From the NCBI RefSeq assembly GCF_020179605.1, contig NZ_JAINZO010000002.1, positions 1,240,001-1,304,000 of the forward strand: a DNA stretch of 64,000 bases, given 5' to 3'. Numbering within the stretch: position 1 is the stretch's first letter; the number at the start of each line of letters is the position of its first letter. The notes under the pieces are model-generated. The model saw only the letters and a program-made list of their open reading frames with translations. It had not been told where the DNA came from and searched no databases. Positions 55,301-64,000 of the stretch are shown here, piece after piece. Source of the stretch: Geomonas agri. GTDB taxonomy: Bacteria; Desulfobacterota; Desulfuromonadia; Geobacterales; Geobacteraceae. The position numbers and the translations under genes are program-made.

Positions 55301-55376
55301 GCCCAGATAGCTCAGTCGGTAGAGCAGAGGATTGAAAATCCTCGTGTCGGCGGTTCGATTCCGTCTCTGGGCACCA
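55301..55376 (+). tRNA. tRNA-Phe (GAA)
   Basis: A 76-base tRNA with acceptor GCCCAGA / TCTGGGC, discriminator A and encoded CCA; the anticodon loop ATTGAAAAT gives GAA. Its 3' end coincides with the change to AT-rich foreign-looking DNA, making it the likely attachment site of the element that follows. Confidence 0.98.
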
Positions 55377-55386
55377 CTAGAAATCA

Positions 55387-55421
55387 GGCACTTACGTTAA
55401 TTCGTAAGTGCCTTTTCTTTT
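55387..55421 (+). terminator. Rho-independent terminator of tRNA-Phe
   Basis: A 10-bp stem GGCACTTACG / CGTAAGTGCC with a 6-base loop, followed by TTTTCTTTT, 10 bases past the tRNA. Confidence 0.9.
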
Positions 55422-55425
55422 GCTG

Positions 55426-55445
55426 TTGACGCAGATGTTGACGCA
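55426..55445 (+). repeat. Paired TTGACGCA direct repeats, left copy
   Basis: TTGACGCA at 55426-55433 and 55438-55445, spaced 12 bases. An inverted pair with the same 12-base spacing lies at 56174-56193. Such arrays near a tRNA end resemble arm-type binding sites of tyrosine recombinases. Confidence 0.6.
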
Positions 55446-56291
55446 GGTTAAATGCACCGCCTACATCTAAAGCCTCTGCTCTCTTCGACACTGGTGCTTT
55501 TGTCCTATTGCCATAGGACAAAGTACACCAGACACATCCTCCTTTGCTCACATACTCGCAAACTCGGTTGAGTAAGCTATCAGGGCAACTAGACCAGACC
55601 ACTCCTCGCAAGTACCCATTCACACTACCAATACTCATGATACTGTACCCCTCATTAATGCCCTAACCACTAGGAGCAACAAGTGAATTGCTGGTATCGT
55701 GTGTAGGGCGGGTTTGTAAAGGGACATCGGGTTATCTACAAGCACAAAAGCTTTAGGAGGAGTACCACCTATGATCCTGACACCTAACGCCCGCCAACTC
55801 CCGCAGGGTGTTCTCCAAACTTGCATTGTGGGGTGCCAGGTAATGTGAGACTTGTCAGCAGATAAGCTGATAAGCAGAAAAGCAAACTCCGAAGCAGATT
55901 TCATTTTTTATATATACAGTGAGTAGAGTGATTGAGATGTGAGGTCTGAATTAGCGTTATCGCCTACCCCGGGGTCGATTCTGCTAAACGTATAGGTAGG
56001 TATAGGTTGACAAGGGATCTCCGGTTAGAAACGGAATGCGTCCGCTTGCTATAGGAAACCAGTGTCGGCTCTCAAGAGTTATTTGCTACGCAAACATCCC
56101 TTTCGATCCGAGCCTAAAAAACCTCAAGTGGCTGTTGTTTCGACTACTTTGATGTGGTAAAAAGAGCAGTAGTTGCGTCAATACTTGCGTCAAGTGCCAA
56201 TGTGTAGCCGCAAGTGCCTGTAATCCTGTGAGATTTATATTCAAGCAGAGGATACCAAATCCGCTGTGCGCCTCTTGAGTGAAGGAAAGTT
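55446..56291. other. Gene-poor left end of the island
   Basis: About 850 bases with no convincing gene. Two short minus-strand frames (near 55384-55638 and 55635-55904) lack ribosome sites and recognisable domains. Visible structure: the palindrome TTTGTCCTA-ttgcca-TAGGACAAA (about 55498-55521), TATAGGTAGGTATAGG direct repeats near 55993-56008, and the right TGCGTCAA pair. Probably attachment-site DNA and decayed sequence. Confidence 0.5.
56174..56193 (-). repeat. Paired TTGACGCA repeats, right inverted copy
   Basis: TGCGTCAA at 56174-56181 and 56186-56193, i.e. TTGACGCA on the minus strand, again spaced 12 bases. Faces the pair at 55426-55445 across 728 bases. Confidence 0.6.
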
Positions 56292-57077
56292 ATGGAAATG
56301 ATTGATGTAGTGCTAGGGCAAATAGAGAGCAGTAGCAAAAGCAAGATCACTGTCAGAAATATGGCTGAAAGGATCAAAGCTGTTCTGGCATCAGCTATGC
56401 CTGAAGACTATGATGAAATTGATCTGACGCCAGACGCCCTGATTGATGTCATCAGGTATGTTAGAGATGAAGTAAATAAACCTAGGGCCTTTGAGCCCAA
56501 CTACCAGCTCCTTCAAGAGATATTAAAATACCAGAGAAAATTTTACTTACAGGGAACCGTTGATGATACAAGCTTACTTCTCACGTATCGGTCCTATATT
56601 ATCAGACATTCGGAAGTGTATGAGACCCTACGTGAGGAGTTGGATAAGCGTGGAGAAGTGACTTTCCATTACGAACTTAATATGGCCTTACCATTACATG
56701 AAAACATTGATAGCATCAAAAGGTATTGCAATGCTTTAGAAATTGCAGTTAGATCGCAATATGGAATTGTATCAACGATGCTAGACGAGTGTAAAGGATT
56801 AGGCCCCTTTTTCATTTTCCATGAAGACGTTATCGGTAATGAAGAGGCTTGGGATAAAAGGCTACTCTACTGGTATGCCTGTTACGAGGCGCACACCCTT
56901 TGCCACGTCAAAGGTCTGAGCAAAGCTGAAACCATCCGTGAGTTGGATGCCTCCCTTCCAAACCTGTACAGATTTAATCTTGACGATATGACTAACGCAA
57001 CCCACAAGCTTGACGGTTACCTTGATGAAGCAAACCGCTTGATTGCCAGTGCAGCGGCAGGCACCTTCCCCTATTAA
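56292..57077 (+). CDS. Unrecognised island protein (261 residues)
   Basis: A soluble, mostly helical protein with an acidic bias. Visible stretches are MIDVVLGQIESSSKSKITVR, LTPDALIDVIRYVRDEVNKP, and a C-terminal part with WDKRLLYWYACYEAHTLCHV followed by LSKAETIRELDASLP. The AHTLCHVKGL segment has Cys and His but no known zinc motif. GAAGGAAAG precedes the ATG. No homologous family comes to mind; DNA-binding or element-maintenance roles are possible but unsupported. It is on the same strand as the following two genes, 162 bases before the next. Confidence 0.7.
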   Translation: MEMIDVVLGQIESSSKSKITVRNMAERIKAVLASAMPEDYDEIDLTPDALIDVIRYVRDEVNKPRAFEPNYQLLQEILKYQRKFYLQGTVDDTSLLLTYRSYIIRHSEVYETLREELDKRGEVTFHYELNMALPLHENIDSIKRYCNALEIAVRSQYGIVSTMLDECKGLGPFFIFHEDVIGNEEAWDKRLLYWYACYEAHTLCHVKGLSKAETIRELDASLPNLYRFNLDDMTNATHKLDGYLDEANRLIASAAAGTFPY

Positions 57078-57239
57078 CCCACTTTAGTCCCTGCCGTAAC
57101 TCTTCCATCCGATCCCTCCATCCCCCCTTCTGTATAAATCAAAAAAAATACCTTCAACATACCAACTGAAGATCCCTCCTGCTAGAGTCCAATCCATCAC
57201 AGGCCACGAGGCCAATTACAAAAGGATGGAGGAATAACA

Positions 57240-57671
57240 ATGGCAGAGAAAGAAGAGATGAACGGGGTAGGTGGCAGTGTAGCGGATGGGGTTAACCTTG
57301 CTGAGTTCAACAGGATTAAGGCAGAGCTGAGAAGGCACACCGTAGCCAATATGGTCAAGGCTGTCGGCAAAAACAAGGTAATCTGGCGGCAGACGATGGT
57401 CTGGAGAAGGGTTGATCCAGCGGTCGTTGTACCTGATGATGACTTGGTAGCTTACAGCATCATTCATGCGCTCAGGAAAACGGGTGATCCGAACCAAAAG
57501 ATCCAGGTTTCGGACAACGAAATAGAAGCCTACAAGGCACTCGATCCTGACTTTAACCAGACTGTCACTCTGGCTGATGTTCAGAAAAAGGTAAAGGAAC
57601 TCAAGTTCTCGGGGACGCTTTCTGTGAAGGGTGATAATGCTGGTAACGATGACGACGGCCACGAGGAGTAG
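57240..57671 (+). CDS. Unrecognised small acidic-tailed island protein
   Basis: A 143-residue protein. It starts MAEKEEMNGVGGSVADGVNL with GGAGG 6 bases upstream; the middle is basic and amphipathic (IKAELRRHTVANMVKAVGKN, VIWRQTMVWRRVDPAVVV), and the end is strongly acidic (NAGNDDDGHEE). Such basic core plus acidic tail resembles single-strand-binding or nucleoid proteins in outline, but no OB-fold motif is evident. An 11-bp terminator-like hairpin separates it from the polymerase-like gene. Confidence 0.7.
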   Translation: MAEKEEMNGVGGSVADGVNLAEFNRIKAELRRHTVANMVKAVGKNKVIWRQTMVWRRVDPAVVVPDDDLVAYSIIHALRKTGDPNQKIQVSDNEIEAYKALDPDFNQTVTLADVQKKVKELKFSGTLSVKGDNAGNDDDGHEE

Positions 57672-57700
57672 GCAGCATAACAACACCAACTAAAGAAGCC

Positions 57701-57729
57701 AACAGGGGAGATCACAAGTCTCCCCTGTT
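57701..57729 (+). terminator. Terminator-like hairpin before polymerase-like gene
   Basis: Perfect 11-bp stem AACAGGGGAGA / TCTCCCCTGTT with a 7-base loop, followed by a short T-run, 19 bases upstream of the next ATG. It could be a partial terminator or attenuator. Confidence 0.65.
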
Positions 57730-57747
57730 TGCATATCAGGAGCCATT

Positions 57748-59415
57748 ATGAAAGGTGAATATACTAAATACGATAATTTCAGGTGGATCAACTGCAACCG
57801 CTGGAGCAATGCCAAAGAGGTAGATTCTCTAGTTGACCACCTAGTGCAAGACATCCCGTCTCGTAAAAAGGACGGGTACCGGATCAACATGAAGATCCTG
57901 ATACTGGATCTCTACCAGTCCCTCCTCTGTGACCCCGAGCAATACCTTGGATACAGCAGGAACGATAACAGTTATACCAAGACCGGTGCTGACCATCCGT
58001 ACATAAAGAACTCCAGAGTTACGTTCGACTACTTGGTGGGGTGCATTGACCACCTGTGGGGCAAGGGGGTTATACGCAATAAGCCAGGTGGACAATTCTT
58101 CAACGGCCCAAAGAAGGTAAGTTCCTTCGCCGCTAAGATGAGACCGTTGCACTCGTTCATTGATTTGGTTAACACGTACCACCTCACCCCTGAGATGATT
58201 GGCTCCTTCATTGAGGACGAAGTGCTGATATTGAGAGATAAGGCTGATGATGATGGCGTCAAACGGAAGTTGCCAGAACCCAAGAATAAAGAAGCCAAGC
58301 GGATGGCAAAGATAATACGCCAGTACAATATTTTGATAGAAAGGACACATGTTGATGTCGATGTCGAGTGCATGACCTACAATGACCGTGACCTTCTGGT
58401 AGCCCAGCTTGCAGACATGGACGTTTCTAAAAAACGGATTGTACTCAGGTTATCAAGGAAGTCCGTCTACAGGGTGTTCAACAACGGTAGCCTTAAGCAA
58501 GGTGGTCGGTTTTACGGTGGCTGGTGGGTTAGTGCTCCGAGTATCGTGAGGAAGTACATCGCCCTCAATGGTAACCCAACGGTTGAACTGGACTTCTCCG
58601 CAATGCACATACACCTTCTGTATGCAAAGGTGGGAGTCAACTATGCTGCCAAAGGGGAGGATGCTTATACCCTTGAGCCAGGGCAATACACCCTCAGCAA
58701 CCTCGATGATGACAGGGATCTCAACAAGCTGATCCTGCTCACAGCATTTAATGCTAAGACCCCTGAAAAGGCGGCTTCTGCTGTGTTTGACGAGCTAAGA
58801 AAGGAGGAGAAGCTTTATCAGTTTCAGGTGCGTGATCACGAACCAATTAAGGCAAAACTTGCTTTACTTAAAAAGAAACATCCTCAGATATCACACTTGC
58901 TGGCGAGCGATCAGGGGCGAGACCTTCAGTATTATGACTCATGTGTTATCGAAAAAGTAATAGCCCATTTTACCAACAAGCAGATACCCGTTCTCACCGT
59001 CCACGATTCCGTTATATGCCAAGTACAACATGCGGAACAAGTTGTAAATGTGATGTATAGAGCATTTTACCAAACAGCAGAAGAGCTTTTGCACATTAAG
59101 GTTTCACCCACACCAAAATTCACGCTTGCAGGGCATACACTTTCGCAACTCAAATATCAATTAAGATATGTTCCGCCAACTGGATGGTTCATGAATATGT
59201 TAAGGTTCACTGGGATCAACAGGACGTATAATGGGAAGGTTAGCGATACAATTCAACCTGTATTGGATGTTAAACAAACGTCTAGGGAGAATGTATGCTC
59301 TGAAAGTTGTCATTGTCACGTTAGATTGACTGGTAAACTTAAGTTCACGCCCAATATAAAACTTGAACTAAAGAAGAGGGTGGAATCCTCTACTAACGTA
59401 CTGGTGATCAGATAG
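57748..59415 (+). CDS. Putative single-subunit (family A-like) polymerase palm protein
   Basis: A 555-residue protein. The central and C-terminal parts carry a set resembling the palm and fingers of family A DNA polymerases and T7-like RNA polymerases: motif A-like NPTVELDFSAMHIHLLYA (Asp282), motif B-like RDLNKLILLTAFNAK (Arg323, Lys327), and motif C-like IPVLTVHDSVICQ (His419-Asp420-Ser421). GGRFYGGWW (252-260) precedes motif A. The N-terminal 240 residues are helical and unassigned, with no exonuclease or primase motif seen. The C terminus has CSESCHCH (about 517-524), possibly a metal knot. AGGAG precedes the ATG. It could replicate the element, act as a primer-independent polymerase, or be a defence enzyme. 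Identification rests on motifs only. Confidence 0.62.
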   Translation: MKGEYTKYDNFRWINCNRWSNAKEVDSLVDHLVQDIPSRKKDGYRINMKILILDLYQSLLCDPEQYLGYSRNDNSYTKTGADHPYIKNSRVTFDYLVGCIDHLWGKGVIRNKPGGQFFNGPKKVSSFAAKMRPLHSFIDLVNTYHLTPEMIGSFIEDEVLILRDKADDDGVKRKLPEPKNKEAKRMAKIIRQYNILIERTHVDVDVECMTYNDRDLLVAQLADMDVSKKRIVLRLSRKSVYRVFNNGSLKQGGRFYGGWWVSAPSIVRKYIALNGNPTVELDFSAMHIHLLYAKVGVNYAAKGEDAYTLEPGQYTLSNLDDDRDLNKLILLTAFNAKTPEKAASAVFDELRKEEKLYQFQVRDHEPIKAKLALLKKKHPQISHLLASDQGRDLQYYDSCVIEKVIAHFTNKQIPVLTVHDSVICQVQHAEQVVNVMYRAFYQTAEELLHIKVSPTPKFTLAGHTLSQLKYQLRYVPPTGWFMNMLRFTGINRTYNGKVSDTIQPVLDVKQTSRENVCSESCHCHVRLTGKLKFTPNIKLELKKRVESSTNVLVIR

Positions 59416-59939
59416 CATCCAAGTGAGGCAGGGGCCTCACGATATGATCCATGGAACTTAGGTAATAGATCATGTGGTATATCGGTGAGCACCCATAGAC
59501 ATAACACTGGCACCGGGGATTCCTCCATAACTCAGGCCGATTCGAGCTAAGCTGTTGAATTTAACTGAAAAGTGCGGGCTGTCGAGTCGTGAGGAGGCCG
59601 CGTCGGTCTAGCCGGAGCAGAGTCGATGCAGCGACTGGAAACTTGTGCTGTCTTGAAGATGATGTAAGTGTGGGGCTGGCAGGAAAGTCTCGTTGTAAGC
59701 TAAACGAAAAGTCTCATGCTGTTTTTATTTTAAACATTTAGCGTCACCTCTCTCAGCACAAGGAACCTTTCTAATTAGCAGAATGGTCAACCCCACCCCT
59801 TTCCTGCATCGAGATACAATGTCTTGTCAGAAACGAAATTTGGAGCCTGTAGATGGTAAAGCTTTAACTAAAGCTAACCTTGTGATATAACGGGTCAGCT
59901 TCCACTGCTAATCCCAAAGCCATATAGGTACGTCCCGTC
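59416..59939. other. Gene-free 524-bp block between polymerase-like gene and hsdR
   Basis: No convincing coding frame on either strand. It begins with a perfect hairpin GTGAGGC-AGGG-GCCTCAC (59423-59440), contains a GC-richer stretch (about 59570-59650, GTGCGGGCTGTCGAGTCGTG...) with short inverted segments such as GTCGATGCAGCGAC, then AT-rich DNA. It could hold a structured RNA or be a decayed insert. The hsdR promoter must lie within or before it. Confidence 0.5.
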
Positions 59940-62261
59940 ATGAGCGAACAAGACGCACGACTTGTCATTAATAAGAAGCTAGAGGATTCAGGCTGGGTAC
60001 TCATTGGCTCCCATAAGAACGTAAAGACTGAGATAGCTTGCGAGTCTGGAGTTGCTGACTATCTTCTGCTAGGACGCAAGGGGCAGAACCTAGCTGTGCT
60101 GGAAGCCAAAGCTGATGATTACGGGGATGTCTACCTCGCTAAGGATCAAGCTCATGGCTATGCTCTGGCTATGGGATGCAGGTGTGTTTTCCTGGCGAAC
60201 TCTGAACAGATATACTTCTGGGACTTGGATGAAGGTGATGCACGACCGATAGAAAGATTCATATCCCCTGAAGACCTCCAAAGACGTTCAGACCTTAAAA
60301 TACTAAAGAAGCCACTAGCTCAAGTCGAGCACCAAGCAGCCATAGCAGACAGACCCTATCAGAAAGAAGCTAGCGATATCATAGCCAGCCTCTATGACAA
60401 GGGTAAACGTGCCTTTCTCCTAGAGATGGCTACCGGCACAGGTAAGACCCGCTTAGCAGCTGCCATCATAGATAGGTTTCTGGCATCCCACCAAGCAGAA
60501 CGCATACTCTTCATAGTAGACAGGATAGAGCTAGCTAAACAGTCCCTAGAATCCTTCCAGCTGGCCTTTATGGATAAGTACAAGAGTGCCAGATACAAGC
60601 CAGGACGTAAGGGCGAATGGGGCGGAGCATCCGTAGTGGTGGCTACGATCCAGAGCCTTAACATCCACTTCAAGGAAGACTTCACCCCTGGCTACTTTGA
60701 CCTCGTTATCAATGACGAGTGCCACAGGTCAATCTATGGTGAGCTACCCAGGCAAGTAGTTGAATACTTCCAAGCAACAAGGATTGGACTCACAGCCACC
60801 CCTAGAGACTTCCTGAAGAATATAGATATTGAGCATCTAAACGAGAATAACCCCAAAGCTCTCGAATACCGCATGATGCGGGATACCTACAGGCACTTTG
60901 GTTGCGAAGCTGGAGAGCCTACTTACAGGTTCACCATACAGGATGCAACCAATGCTACTGATCCAGGCCCTTATCTCGTCCCTGCCAAGATATATAAACT
61001 CTATTCGCTTATCACCAGGGAATCGGTTTCTGACGAAGGCTGGAATGTTGAGATTGATGGCGAGGACTACACCTTTACCATTTCTCAGTTGGAGAAGAAG
61101 GTAAACGTCCCTGAGCGTAATAGGCTCATATGCCAGGAGTTCCTTAAGTATGGTGAGAAGACCCCAGACGGCTCTATAGGGAAGTCTATAGTGTTCGCTG
61201 TGTCACAGGATCATGCTGCTGCACTGGCTAAGGAGCTTAATGCTCTAGTGCCTGAGAGTAATGGTAAGTTTGCTGAGATCATAACCTCTAGGGTCAAGAA
61301 CGCTTCTGACAAAGCCAAGATATTCAGGAAGAGTGAGAACTACTGGCCCAGAGTAGCTTTAACGGTAGATATGCTTTCTACTGGCTACGACTGCCCTGAA
61401 GTCTTGAACATAGTGCTGGCGAGACCTATCGCATCACCCACCACTTATATCCAGATCAAAGGTAGAGGAACACGTAAGCACACCTTCCCAGATGGCACAG
61501 AGAAATCTAAGTTCATCATTCATGACTTCTGTGAAGTGGTCGAATACTTTGAAGAGAAGTATGACTATGAGGCTCCCTTACCCATACCAATAGGTAAGGG
61601 AACTGAACCGCCTGAGCCACCCCAGCCTCCAGAGCCACCTATTCCGCCTGAACCACCACAGCAAACGGGTCCACTTGTGGCAAAATATCTTGATGCTATG
61701 GTGATAACCCAGTTTATAGAAATCGGTCCTGAAGGTGAGAAGGTAGATAGGATGCTCTACCAGACCAAGTGGAAAGAGAAGATACAGGAGGTTGCCGCAC
61801 AGCATCCAGAGATAGTGGAAGCAGCCCAGACCAATAACTTTACTGATGAGATGCTGGACTTTATCAACTCTGAAGTGCTCAACAGACCCAACGACTACTT
61901 TAACGAAACCAACTTAGCTAAGGTCTACAGGATATTTGCAGACATAACGGACTTCATAAAGGATGCCCTAGGGATAGGTAAGCTACCAACTGAGCAGCAA
62001 CAGTTTCAAGACCTTATAGATTTTCTGAGGATAGAGTACAACCTGAATCTACAACAGGTAACCCTTCTCAAGATGTTGACCCAGCAGCTAGTTCAAAGCC
62101 CCAGGTATGCTGAACAGTTCGATAAGGGTGATTATATGTTCCTGAACAATGCACCATTCAGAGGTGCTGGTATCTATCTGGGAGCCTTTGGTGATACGCT
62201 GAAGCCTATCTTCACACAGATCAAGCAAAGCCCATCATTCAAATTAGCGAGGATGCATTAA
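59940..62261 (+). CDS. hsdR: Type I restriction enzyme R subunit
   Basis: A 773-residue nuclease-translocase. N-terminal PD-(D/E)xK nuclease pattern: VADYLLLGRKGQNLAVLEAK (Asp40, Glu55, Lys57). Superfamily 2 helicase motor: Walker A MATGTGKTRLA (Lys169), NDECHRS (DEAH-like box, 259-262), GLTATPRDF and, in the second RecA domain, TVDMLSTGYDCPEV and IQIKGRGTRK. A striking proline/glutamate hinge (PPEPPQPPEPPIPPEPP, about 558-575) joins the C-terminal helical domain. With HsdM and HsdS it cleaves unmethylated DNA after translocation. The codon AGG, ATA and CTA use is unlike the host. One base separates it from hsdM. Confidence 0.94.
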   Translation: MSEQDARLVINKKLEDSGWVLIGSHKNVKTEIACESGVADYLLLGRKGQNLAVLEAKADDYGDVYLAKDQAHGYALAMGCRCVFLANSEQIYFWDLDEGDARPIERFISPEDLQRRSDLKILKKPLAQVEHQAAIADRPYQKEASDIIASLYDKGKRAFLLEMATGTGKTRLAAAIIDRFLASHQAERILFIVDRIELAKQSLESFQLAFMDKYKSARYKPGRKGEWGGASVVVATIQSLNIHFKEDFTPGYFDLVINDECHRSIYGELPRQVVEYFQATRIGLTATPRDFLKNIDIEHLNENNPKALEYRMMRDTYRHFGCEAGEPTYRFTIQDATNATDPGPYLVPAKIYKLYSLITRESVSDEGWNVEIDGEDYTFTISQLEKKVNVPERNRLICQEFLKYGEKTPDGSIGKSIVFAVSQDHAAALAKELNALVPESNGKFAEIITSRVKNASDKAKIFRKSENYWPRVALTVDMLSTGYDCPEVLNIVLARPIASPTTYIQIKGRGTRKHTFPDGTEKSKFIIHDFCEVVEYFEEKYDYEAPLPIPIGKGTEPPEPPQPPEPPIPPEPPQQTGPLVAKYLDAMVITQFIEIGPEGEKVDRMLYQTKWKEKIQEVAAQHPEIVEAAQTNNFTDEMLDFINSEVLNRPNDYFNETNLAKVYRIFADITDFIKDALGIGKLPTEQQQFQDLIDFLRIEYNLNLQQVTLLKMLTQQLVQSPRYAEQFDKGDYMFLNNAPFRGAGIYLGAFGDTLKPIFTQIKQSPSFKLARMH

Positions 62262-62262
62262 C

Positions 62263-63750
62263 ATGGCAGTGAATTTCATAAACTCTGATCTTCAGCAGCA
62301 GGTAGATAGGCTCATGAACGAGCTGTTTGCTGGGGGGGTCAACAACCCTATGACCTCTGTTGAGCAGATAAGTTACCTGATGTTTCTGAAGAGTCTGACT
62401 GAGAAGGATGAAGAACAGGAGCAGCTACAGAAACTCATGGGTGGTAAGCATACCTCCTTATTCTCTGGGGCGTGGTCGCAGTATAGCTGGAGGACTGTAG
62501 CTAGACTCTCAGGCGATCCTCTATACAATACGCTCTCAGAAGCCTTTGAGAAGTTTCATGAGCTGCCTAACTTATCCCCTATAGGCAAGGTGCTATTCAG
62601 GCAAGCACACCTAAAGATATACAACCGCCCTACGTTGAGGTCAGTAGTCACCATCATAGACGAGATGGACTATAATAATTCTCAGAAGTATGACACAGAC
62701 GTTAAGGGTGATCTCTACGAATATCTGCTGAGCAAGATAGCTGTCTCAGGGACTAACGGACAGTTTAGGACGCCGAGGCACATCATCCAGATGATGGTTA
62801 AACTTCTTGATCCTAAGCCTGGACAATACATATTAGACCCAGCCTGCGGCACAGCAGGGTTCTTAGTGGAAGCCTACAAGCACATAGTAGAGCAACATAC
62901 TTCAGATGATCTCAAGCAGCAGGGCCATTTTCACGTAGGAGATAACCTGAGACCAGACCAGCATGAGTTCTTGAAGAACCATGCTCTAACGGGCTACGAT
63001 AATGATAGCGATATGATAAAAGTTGCTATCATGAACCTCTATTTGCATGGTCTGGAGAATGCCAACGTAAGACACCATGACCCTATTACCCTGCCTAATC
63101 CTAACGAGAAGAAATACGACGTCATCCTAGCCAATCCACCTTTTGCAGGTAAGGTCAACAAAGAAGCCATACTAGAGGATTTTGACCTCAAGACAGCCAG
63201 CACAGAACTTCTTTTTGGCGAATATTTCTACAAGCATTTAGTCCTAGGTGGCAAGGCTGCTATCATTGTCCCAGAGGGTGTACTGTTCGGCTCCACCACA
63301 GCACATAAGAAGCTCAGAGGATGGCTACTGGATAACACCAAAGTACACTCTGTGATTAGCCTGCCATCTGGAGTCTTCAAACCCTATGCTGGAGTCAAGA
63401 CATCTATCCTGGTCTTTGAGCGTGGAGGCAAGAGTGAAAAGGTATGGTTCTATGAGGTCACTGGTGATGGTTATAGTCTGGACGATAAGCGTACACCACA
63501 GCCAGATAAGAACGATATACCAGACCTCATAGCTAAGTGGGGTTCTAAGCCTGAGAGCGATAACAGTTGGTTTGCCACCAGAGATGAGATCAAGGAGAAT
63601 GACGATAATCTTACTGCTGGGCGATACAAGCCTCAAGTCCATGAGGCAACTAACCATGCTTCTCCTAAAGAGATAATAGCTGAGGTGTTAGACCTTGAAG
63701 CAAAGATAACTAGCGGACTGAATACTCTGCTGGCTAAGATAGGTGGTTAG
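62263..63750 (+). CDS. hsdM: Type I restriction-modification system M subunit (N6-adenine methyltransferase)
   Basis: A 495-residue methyltransferase. The N-terminal HsdM_N helical domain (about 8-130) is followed by the SAM-binding motif LDPACGTAGFLVEAYKH (191-207) and catalytic NPPF (291-294) in VILANPPFAGKVNK. The block GQFRTPRHIIQMMVKLLDP and the tail AGRYKPQVHE are family-typical. It methylates adenine at the site set by HsdS and protects host DNA. It begins 1 base after hsdR and is followed 1 base later by hsdS. Confidence 0.96.
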   Translation: MAVNFINSDLQQQVDRLMNELFAGGVNNPMTSVEQISYLMFLKSLTEKDEEQEQLQKLMGGKHTSLFSGAWSQYSWRTVARLSGDPLYNTLSEAFEKFHELPNLSPIGKVLFRQAHLKIYNRPTLRSVVTIIDEMDYNNSQKYDTDVKGDLYEYLLSKIAVSGTNGQFRTPRHIIQMMVKLLDPKPGQYILDPACGTAGFLVEAYKHIVEQHTSDDLKQQGHFHVGDNLRPDQHEFLKNHALTGYDNDSDMIKVAIMNLYLHGLENANVRHHDPITLPNPNEKKYDVILANPPFAGKVNKEAILEDFDLKTASTELLFGEYFYKHLVLGGKAAIIVPEGVLFGSTTAHKKLRGWLLDNTKVHSVISLPSGVFKPYAGVKTSILVFERGGKSEKVWFYEVTGDGYSLDDKRTPQPDKNDIPDLIAKWGSKPESDNSWFATRDEIKENDDNLTAGRYKPQVHEATNHASPKEIIAEVLDLEAKITSGLNTLLAKIGG

Positions 63751-63751
63751 C

Positions 63752-64000
63752 ATGACTAAGCAACTGCCAGTAGGCTGGAAGAGAGTAACGCTTAAAAGTG
63801 TCTGTAATACATTTATTGATGGGGACTGGATAGAGTCTAAGGACCAATCAGAAGATGGTATTAGGCTTATTCAAACAGGTAATGTTGGCTTGGGTTACTT
63901 CAAAGATAAGGAATCAAAGAAATATATAACCGAAGAAACTTTCAACCGCCTTAATTGCACTGAAGTGATCCCGGGCGATATTCTTATATCAAGGTTGCCT
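63752..64000 (+). CDS. hsdS: Type I restriction-modification specificity subunit (cut by window end)
   Basis: The first 83 residues of HsdS. It starts MTKQLPVGWKRVTLKSVCNT and contains the target recognition opening DGIRLIQTGNVGLGYF and VIPGDILISR, both typical of the N-terminal recognition domain. The start lies 1 base after the hsdM stop. The rest, including the conserved helical spacers and second recognition domain, is beyond the window. Confidence 0.93.
   Translation, partial: MTKQLPVGWKRVTLKSVCNTFIDGDWIESKDQSEDGIRLIQTGNVGLGYFKDKESKKYITEETFNRLNCTEVIPGDILISRLP

Follow-up and report, generated by a model that had tools for sequence, protein, structure and literature searches.

An element-borne polymerase of the TV-Pol/divPolA2 type, predicted at a tRNA-Phe integration site of Geomonas agri

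Within a 64,000-nucleotide stretch of the Geomonas agri genome (hereafter the window), a gene downstream of tRNA-Phe encodes a 555-residue protein in which a first, sequence-only reading had noticed an ordered triplet of polymerase-like motifs. The locus raises the question of what kind of polymerase this may be and what such an enzyme would do on a genomic island. The relevant features are listed below in window coordinates.

55301..55376, + strand: tRNA-Phe, the integration target
55331..55383, no strand: left attachment repeat, 53 bp; the right copy lies beyond the window at continued coordinate 74935-74987 (G000:C2:1314935-1314987)
56292..57077, + strand: 261-aa protein with no assigned function; relatives in loci L044 and L122
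57240..57671, + strand: 143-aa ORF with no assigned function; no Pfam match above the cut-off
57748..59415, + strand: predicted polymerase of TV-Pol/divPolA2 type, 555 aa; open reading frame, phrog_4756 at E 8.2e-53
57748..58458, + strand: N-terminal region, residues 1-237; modelled alone, pLDDT 82.1
58501..58515, + strand: GGRFY, residues 252-256, with invariant R254; from conservation, and a strand at 252-256 in the AlphaFold model
58591..58608, + strand: motif A, D282 to H287; D282 in 88/88, H287 in 77/88
58714..58752, + strand: motif B, R323 to N335; K327 in 88/88, N335 in 79/88; spacing as in T7 RNAP R627-K631-Y639
58999..59010, + strand: motif C, VHDS, H419-D420; both in 88/88
59940..62261, + strand: type I restriction subunit R, cargo
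62263..63750, + strand: type I modification subunit M, cargo
63743..64000, + strand: start of HsdS (Methylase_S), which ends at continued coordinate 64969

The frame at 57748-59415 (+) is uninterrupted over 555 codons, and the triplet is present in full: LDFSAMH places an aspartate at residue 282, R323-x3-K327-x5-AFNAK is found, and VHDSV supplies H419-D420. A pattern for the triplet, fitted post hoc to the window protein, was matched in 1 of 20,000 shuffles of the same protein; conservation is the better test of the motifs. A MAFFT alignment of 88 members, window protein included, was obtained by removing 15 of 108 rows (copies of rows present, partial or broken ORFs, one mis-framed) plus 5 duplicates. 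R254, R268, D282, Y307, K327, H419 and D420 are each found in 88/88 of its rows, R323 in 87, N335 in 79 and H287 in 77. With two phage members added, R254, D282, K327 and D420 stand in 90 of 90 sequences and R323 and H419 in 89, which includes all of Asp282, Lys327 and Asp420, the residues on whose conservation the sequence-only reading had staked its case. Near-identical rows remain, so the counts over 88 and 90 rows are not counts of independent events. Residue D305 in the fingers is D in 62 of the 90, N in 14 and S in 9, and is a candidate only for the conserved fingers Asp of TV-Pols.

The GGRFYGGWW block had been taken for a misfit with known layouts, but its Gly-Arg-x-Tyr also occurs in T7 RNA polymerase (DWRGRVY) and N4 RNAP1 (DKRGRTY). 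Y307 lies within a DxY motif, for which N4 RNAP2 has DAY and T7 RNAP has DIY. The order GR, motif A, DxY, RxxxK, HD is a likeness to N4 RNAPII and T7 RNAP, accompanied by weak profile matches, although the GR of N4 sits in the separate RNAP1 subunit, and T7-like RNA polymerases differ in their motif-B Tyr, where the window protein has Asn (N335), and in their N-terminal part, that of the window protein having no significant match.

The spacing of motif B equals that of T7 RNAP TRSVTKRSVMTLAYG and T7 DNAP TRDNAKTFIYGFLYG, which puts Asn335 at the motif-B tyrosine position by spacing, not by superposition. An HMM of the core aligns T7 RNAP (-4.6 bits) and T7 DNAP (-2.8 bits) with the same motif-B placement, at scores that are not significant. 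Assigned in this way, the family-A sugar-gate positions of the window protein hold H287 (D+5), L331 (K+4) and N335 (K+8), which is not the DNA polymerase I pattern of Glu at D+5, Phe/Tyr at K+4 and Tyr at K+8; by spacing, His287 would occupy the place that Glu710 has in Pol I and Gly542 in T7 RNAP. Across the 90 sequences, His is found at D+5 in 77, Asn at the motif-B Tyr position (K+8) in 80 and the two combined in 71, and neither Phe nor Tyr occurs at K+4 in any. The sugar gate would appear, again by spacing, to consist of His and Asn in place of Glu/Tyr or Gly/Tyr.

Neither Pfam, NCBIfam nor PADLOC holds a family for the window protein at E<=1, and a PDB sequence search returned no match. 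Against PHROG the protein matches phrog_4756 ("unknown function", E 8.2e-53) and, weakly, phrog_2051 (N4-type RNA polymerase, the N4 RNAP2 family; E 0.0034). In the working alignment of 59 proteins, phrog_4756 is matched by 59/59 at E<=0.01, phrog_2051 by 5 and phrog_2573 (DNA polymerase) by 2. Over the same members Pfam and NCBIfam yielded stray matches in single members only, and no Pfam exonuclease was found at E<=0.01, in agreement with the earlier remark that none is fused. Single-sequence comparisons added little: hhalign of the profile against T7 RNAP and T7 DNA polymerase gave nothing useful, and the match to N4 RNAP2 was local, spanning just 36 columns (E 0.0054, probability 6.7%). 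When the core HMM was run against 6 proteins, N4 RNAP2 scored best (E 4.9e-5 for 6 targets), and a profile built on 58 of 76 loci plus the window (the A4 profile) found no match at E<=10 in the whole records of N4, T7 and Ma-LMM01.

The AlphaFold model, made from a 59-sequence input, has a pLDDT of 84.9 and a pTM of 0.84. Foldseek against the PDB returned 26 matches at E<=1e-3, exclusively family-A DNA polymerases (apicoplast, Aquifex, Taq, T7, Klenow; best E 1.1e-4) or yeast mitochondrial RNA polymerase, with low TM-scores (0.19-0.34 by query length among the 50 matches listed); the top 13 are DNA polymerases. Together with the conserved motifs, this predicted palm upholds the assignment of the protein, as a short polymerase with a single subunit, to the family-A/T7-RNAP superfamily. 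Against viral models the top 11 matches range from E 8.6e-16 to 4.4e-21, each to a protein 400-450 aa long; the three with names come from Aeromonas phages (two) and from Rheinheimera phage Barba31A (one, called "DNA polymerase").

The N-terminal region had been called unusual, and its 237 residues indeed have no Foldseek match in the PDB at E<=1e-3. The best is a GntR-type wHTH at E 0.11, and several MarR/PadR winged helices, none significant, occur among the 50 matches listed. Its core at residues 38-118 is modelled as helix-strand-helix-helix-strand-strand and is possibly a winged helix, for which these matches are suggestive only. Helices 181-198 and 211-222 lie before the hairpin in the model and are candidates only for the two-helix coiled-coil thumb of TV-Pols.

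The family is already in print, as TV-Pol in 2008 and as divPolA2 in 2024; added here are the family placement of the window protein, the anatomy of the element and the pattern at the sugar gate. For TV-Pols, a role as prim-pols of mobile elements was predicted (Iyer, Abhiman, Aravind 2008, PMC2579912), and Geobacter bemidjiensis and Paracoccus denitrificans are among their species. By its sequence, the window protein appears to have most TV-Pol features, namely the hairpin Arg (R254), two palm Asp (D282, D420), the RxxxK of the fingers (R323, K327) and no nuclease, and the integrase/resolvase and RM neighbours are alike as well. Unlike the extra N-terminal domain of TV-Pols, which was predicted to be all-helical (PMC2579912), that of the window protein has strands, and no D5 helicase, which one TV-Pol subset has fused or adjacent, turned up in the scanned element proteins or in the neighbour families listed (25 of 57). 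The A4 profile matches the published divPolA2 representative AUR84708.1 (E 1.1e-47) and Barba28A gp034 (E 2.1e-62), and these two and the window protein all match phrog_4756. Shared with divPolA2 are what looks from sequence like an active-type palm, an odd, unrelated N-terminal domain and the lack of a 3'-5' exonuclease. There are two differences: divPolA2 was described from phages (Yutin 2024, PMC11348598), whereas the window copy lies in a 19.6-kb bacterial integrated element, and AUR84708 has a Glu/Tyr sugar gate and motif C FDE, unlike the window protein. The available text of PMC11348598 names TV-Pol once, for small viruses. In our literature search no activity test or biochemistry of the window's branch was found, the sources as available gave no account of this tRNA-integrating element class beyond TV-Pol itself, and no mention of the family was found in the accessible part of PMC12926913.

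Two proteins deserve separate description. AUR84708 itself (L142:2470-3762) is atypical for the family, with Glu at D+5, Tyr at K+8 and FDE replacing HDS. MAP_030 of Microcystis phage Ma-LMM01 (L132:22746-24266), annotated as hypothetical and adjoining transposases, looks TV-Pol-like and has the His/Asn pair. Its hhalign match to the profile (E 5e-4, probability 30%) is weak, spans the hairpin and motifs A-B and was missed by the whole-record A4 search, a miss that counts against equating the family outright with TV-Pol; we infer that it is probably the Ma-LMM01 TV-Pol of PMC2579912.

Of 50,697 phage records, 227 have homologues, ICP1 and 112 Rheinheimera phages among them, and so do 3 of 72,556 plasmid records. 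Counting the window's own genome, which holds three copies of the gene, homologues occur in 16 of 141 order-level genomes by protein search (18 of 138 by profile) and in 8 of 395 phylum-level genomes. In the tree the window protein groups with L043 (Geomonas) and L005 (same genus) at support 100/99; the phage label requires at least 5 changes, of which well-supported branches force 2. Rearranged copies were also seen: IS21-type transposase pairs interrupt or cut the polymerase genes at L122:8275-12212 and L034:7710-10789, in two unrelated genomes, and genome G039 carries two inverted 2,761-bp copies (L123:6861-9621 and L124:7862-10622), 100% identical, polymerase gene included, about 17 kb apart.

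The suspected tRNA-Phe island could be given both of its ends. From the tRNA-Phe at 55301-55376, 53 bp of the 3' part are repeated 19.6 kb downstream, bounding a 19.6-kb element whose GC content is 43.8% between the repeats versus 60.1% and 63.5% outside. It contains the polymerase, type I RM genes, an ArdC protein, a serine recombinase and a RadC-like protein, with a tyrosine integrase near the right end; eight ORFs of up to 157 aa were left out of this protein scan. No iterons or obvious origin were seen in 55384-57740 or 59380-59960. A query of the joined flanks gave a single match across the junction, that is, an empty site, in 10 of 18 other genomes of the genus (G030, G031, G033-G037, G040, G041, G045), reaching 38-47 bp into the right flank, and a further junction-spanning match lies at a contig end in G044. 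Other congeners break at the junction, and in G028, G038 and G039 the right half is found 7-14 kb off, as if another island occupied the same tRNA-Phe site. In G028, which has no polymerase match, a different island of about 11 kb (G028:C11:648579-659791) seemingly sits there. The other two copies in the window's genome lie between 49-bp and 37-bp direct repeats resembling tRNA ends (ARAGORN finds a tRNA-Arg at the second and no tRNA in the stretch of the first), and all three copies are flanked by direct repeats.

Similar anatomy recurs elsewhere. Among 42 loci with 3 kb or more on either side (window excluded), 16 have the polymerase enclosed by direct repeats of at least 22 bp, compared with 0 of 35 host control windows, a small control whose windows overlap and come from one 55-kb host stretch of the window in a single genome. 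In the other 26 loci no enclosing repeats were found, to which contig ends and 20-kb limits contribute, and the repeats at L033, L035 and L053 are not tRNA-end-like. At 35 of 43 loci a recombinase, either a tyrosine integrase or a serine recombinase, can be seen, at 20 of them within 2.5 kb; the window was scored as a miss in this count because its integrase lies outside the window. The same recombinase queries found none among 316 ORFs of the host flanks, and no integrase was recognised inside the repeats of L033 and L060. Spans between repeats range from 4.3 kb (L089, a MAG), where an integrase, the polymerase, an HTH gene and small ORFs make up the content, to 19.6 kb. Cargo varies and includes type I RM, Cas9 in L053 and, by look, two-component-like proteins in L046, and in L056, L058 and L062 the polymerase has relatives of the window's type I R or M genes nearby. 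Two elements were noted in their own right. At L053:5996-18177, in a Desulfovibrio MAG, 73-bp direct repeats enclose a polymerase element with Cas9 (Pfam), Cas1/Cas2-sized ORFs and a short repeat array. At L060:5694-13353, 7.7 kb between tRNA-like repeats contain the polymerase and, by look, an AAA-type ATPase and a macro-domain-like protein.

Conservation of the upstream genes with the polymerase had also been raised, and was not borne out: in blastp clustering the 261-aa gene recurs in only 2 other loci, and the 143-aa ORF is absent from the clustering because an opposite-strand ORF was kept instead. Same-strand neighbours (143 of 151 ORFs plus the 143-aa ORF, integrases and serine recombinases excluded) gave 57 Pfam families, only 4 of which are found in more than one of the 144 ORFs, and on this heterogeneity a conserved operon partner was rejected. 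PADLOC families of neighbours are likewise scattered (first 25 of 206). No helicase, initiator or SSB-like protein was recognised as a recurring partner of the polymerase; lone neighbours at other loci match DEAD or UvrD helicases, and in the window the next gene is HsdR. An ArdC protein is present in 8 of 13 loci with context in the window's wider clade, some of them cut short and L122 with a broken polymerase, whereas L043 has complete repeats without ArdC. ArdC is linked to conjugative primases, and it is conceivable that it serves as a single-strand-binding partner.

Mobile elements do carry such enzymes, as pipolins (PMC7385651) and CcPol-MP (PMC7581432, PMC10061031) demonstrate in the text available from these sources. 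One enzyme counted as a TV-Pol, CCPol of SCCmec, has DNA polymerase activity and primes together with its partner MP (PMC7581432, accessible part). The CcPol-MP and PolA-SSB primases are also element-borne family-A polymerases without exonuclease activity of their own (PMC7581432, PMC10061031, available sections). CcPol keeps the equivalents of E710 and F762, both named in those sections of PMC7581432, whereas the window protein has His and Leu. No MP-like partner or CcPol-type helicase was recognised, the upstream ORFs have no OB domain in Pfam such as a PolA-SSB-type partner would bring, and no replicative helicase of that type (D5 or DUF927-type) is among the scanned element proteins, the adjacent gene being HsdR. 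Pipolins, as described in the available text of PMC7385651, resemble the window element in their tRNA att repeats and tyrosine recombinases and in that variable cargo accompanies one common gene, a polymerase; their polymerase is the family B piPolB, while that of the window element has a predicted family-A-type fold.

The element is integrated and apparently mobile, and the polymerase gene stays while the cargo changes. Since all three copies in the window's genome lie between repeats and 16 of 42 loci elsewhere are repeat-enclosed, once within only 4.3 kb, the polymerase looks like part of the element core and not like cargo. With modest confidence, we favour the view that a core gene of a tRNA-integrating mobile element encodes a TV-Pol/divPolA2 polymerase of predicted family-A type, whose active-site pattern is intact and which lacks an exonuclease. 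Judged from sequence and model, it most likely replicates or primes the excised element, and this part of the earlier proposals (element replicase or primase-polymerase) fits the element anatomy. The integrase would excise the element as a circle, on which the predicted polymerase would prime and/or extend DNA, its N-terminal module standing in for the thumb/exonuclease part; polymerisation would raise copy number or convert transferred single strands to duplex, and a copy would reintegrate at tRNA-Phe. The His/Asn pair, placed by spacing, suggests a relaxed or unusual dNTP/rNTP choice, as expected for a primase-polymerase.

Some of the same evidence can be read differently. A small DNA-dependent RNA polymerase of the N4 RNAPII/T7 type would transcribe element or phage genes, or make RNA primers only. 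Weak profile matches lean towards N4 (phrog_2051 in 5 of 59 against phrog_2573 in 2 of 59, and N4 RNAP2 as the best of 6 by core HMM at E 4.9e-5), motif C reads HDS as in T7 RNAP and not HDE as in T7 DNA polymerase, F/Y is missing at K+4 in all 90 sequences, and Yutin et al. keep the option in the available text of PMC11348598. Such an enzyme is nevertheless somewhat unlikely, given that Asn replaces the T7 RNAP motif-B Tyr in 80 of 90 sequences and D+5 is His, not Gly, in 77, that the N-terminal part is unrelated to RNAP N-domains (PMC11348598, same text), that the top 13 Foldseek matches are DNA polymerases and that one published member (AUR84708) has a DNAP-like Glu/Tyr pair.

An accessory repair or lesion-bypass polymerase of elements and phages would suit the barbaviruses, which carry divPolA2 beside a regular PolB and in variable neighbourhoods (PMC11348598, available text), so that it is not the main replicase there; the phage regions examined here also differ in their surroundings. 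In the smallest element, however, this is the sole polymerase-type gene recognised beside the integrase, which would be odd for an accessory repair gene, and the idea is improbable. The new defence enzyme also put forward at the outset, an anti-phage polymerase like the defence reverse transcriptases and grouped with type I RM cargo, could appeal to the defence genes that the elements often bear (type I RM, Cas9 in L053, RM relatives in L056, L058 and L062). It is unsupported because homologues occur in 227 phage records and PADLOC gives no match, and with the polymerase gene remaining while cargo changes we regard it as very improbable.

For the replicative or priming polymerase favoured above, a wider proposal is possible, though we would sooner doubt it: TV-Pol/divPolA2 genes may mark a widespread class of tRNA-integrating elements that are small and replicate themselves, the family-A equivalent of pipolins, each with a single exonuclease-free His/Asn polymerase that both primes and copies the excised element with little dNTP/rNTP preference, and ICP1 and other large lytic phages may have acquired the enzyme to gain a second route of replication or priming. 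Positioned between DNA polymerase I and the single-subunit RNA polymerases, the family is found in at least 227 phage records and many bacterial islands. Should the predicted enzyme indeed prime and copy the DNA of its element, family A would have an analogue of primer-independent PolB, and through the sugar-gate residues the choice between DNA and RNA in this superfamily would become directly testable.
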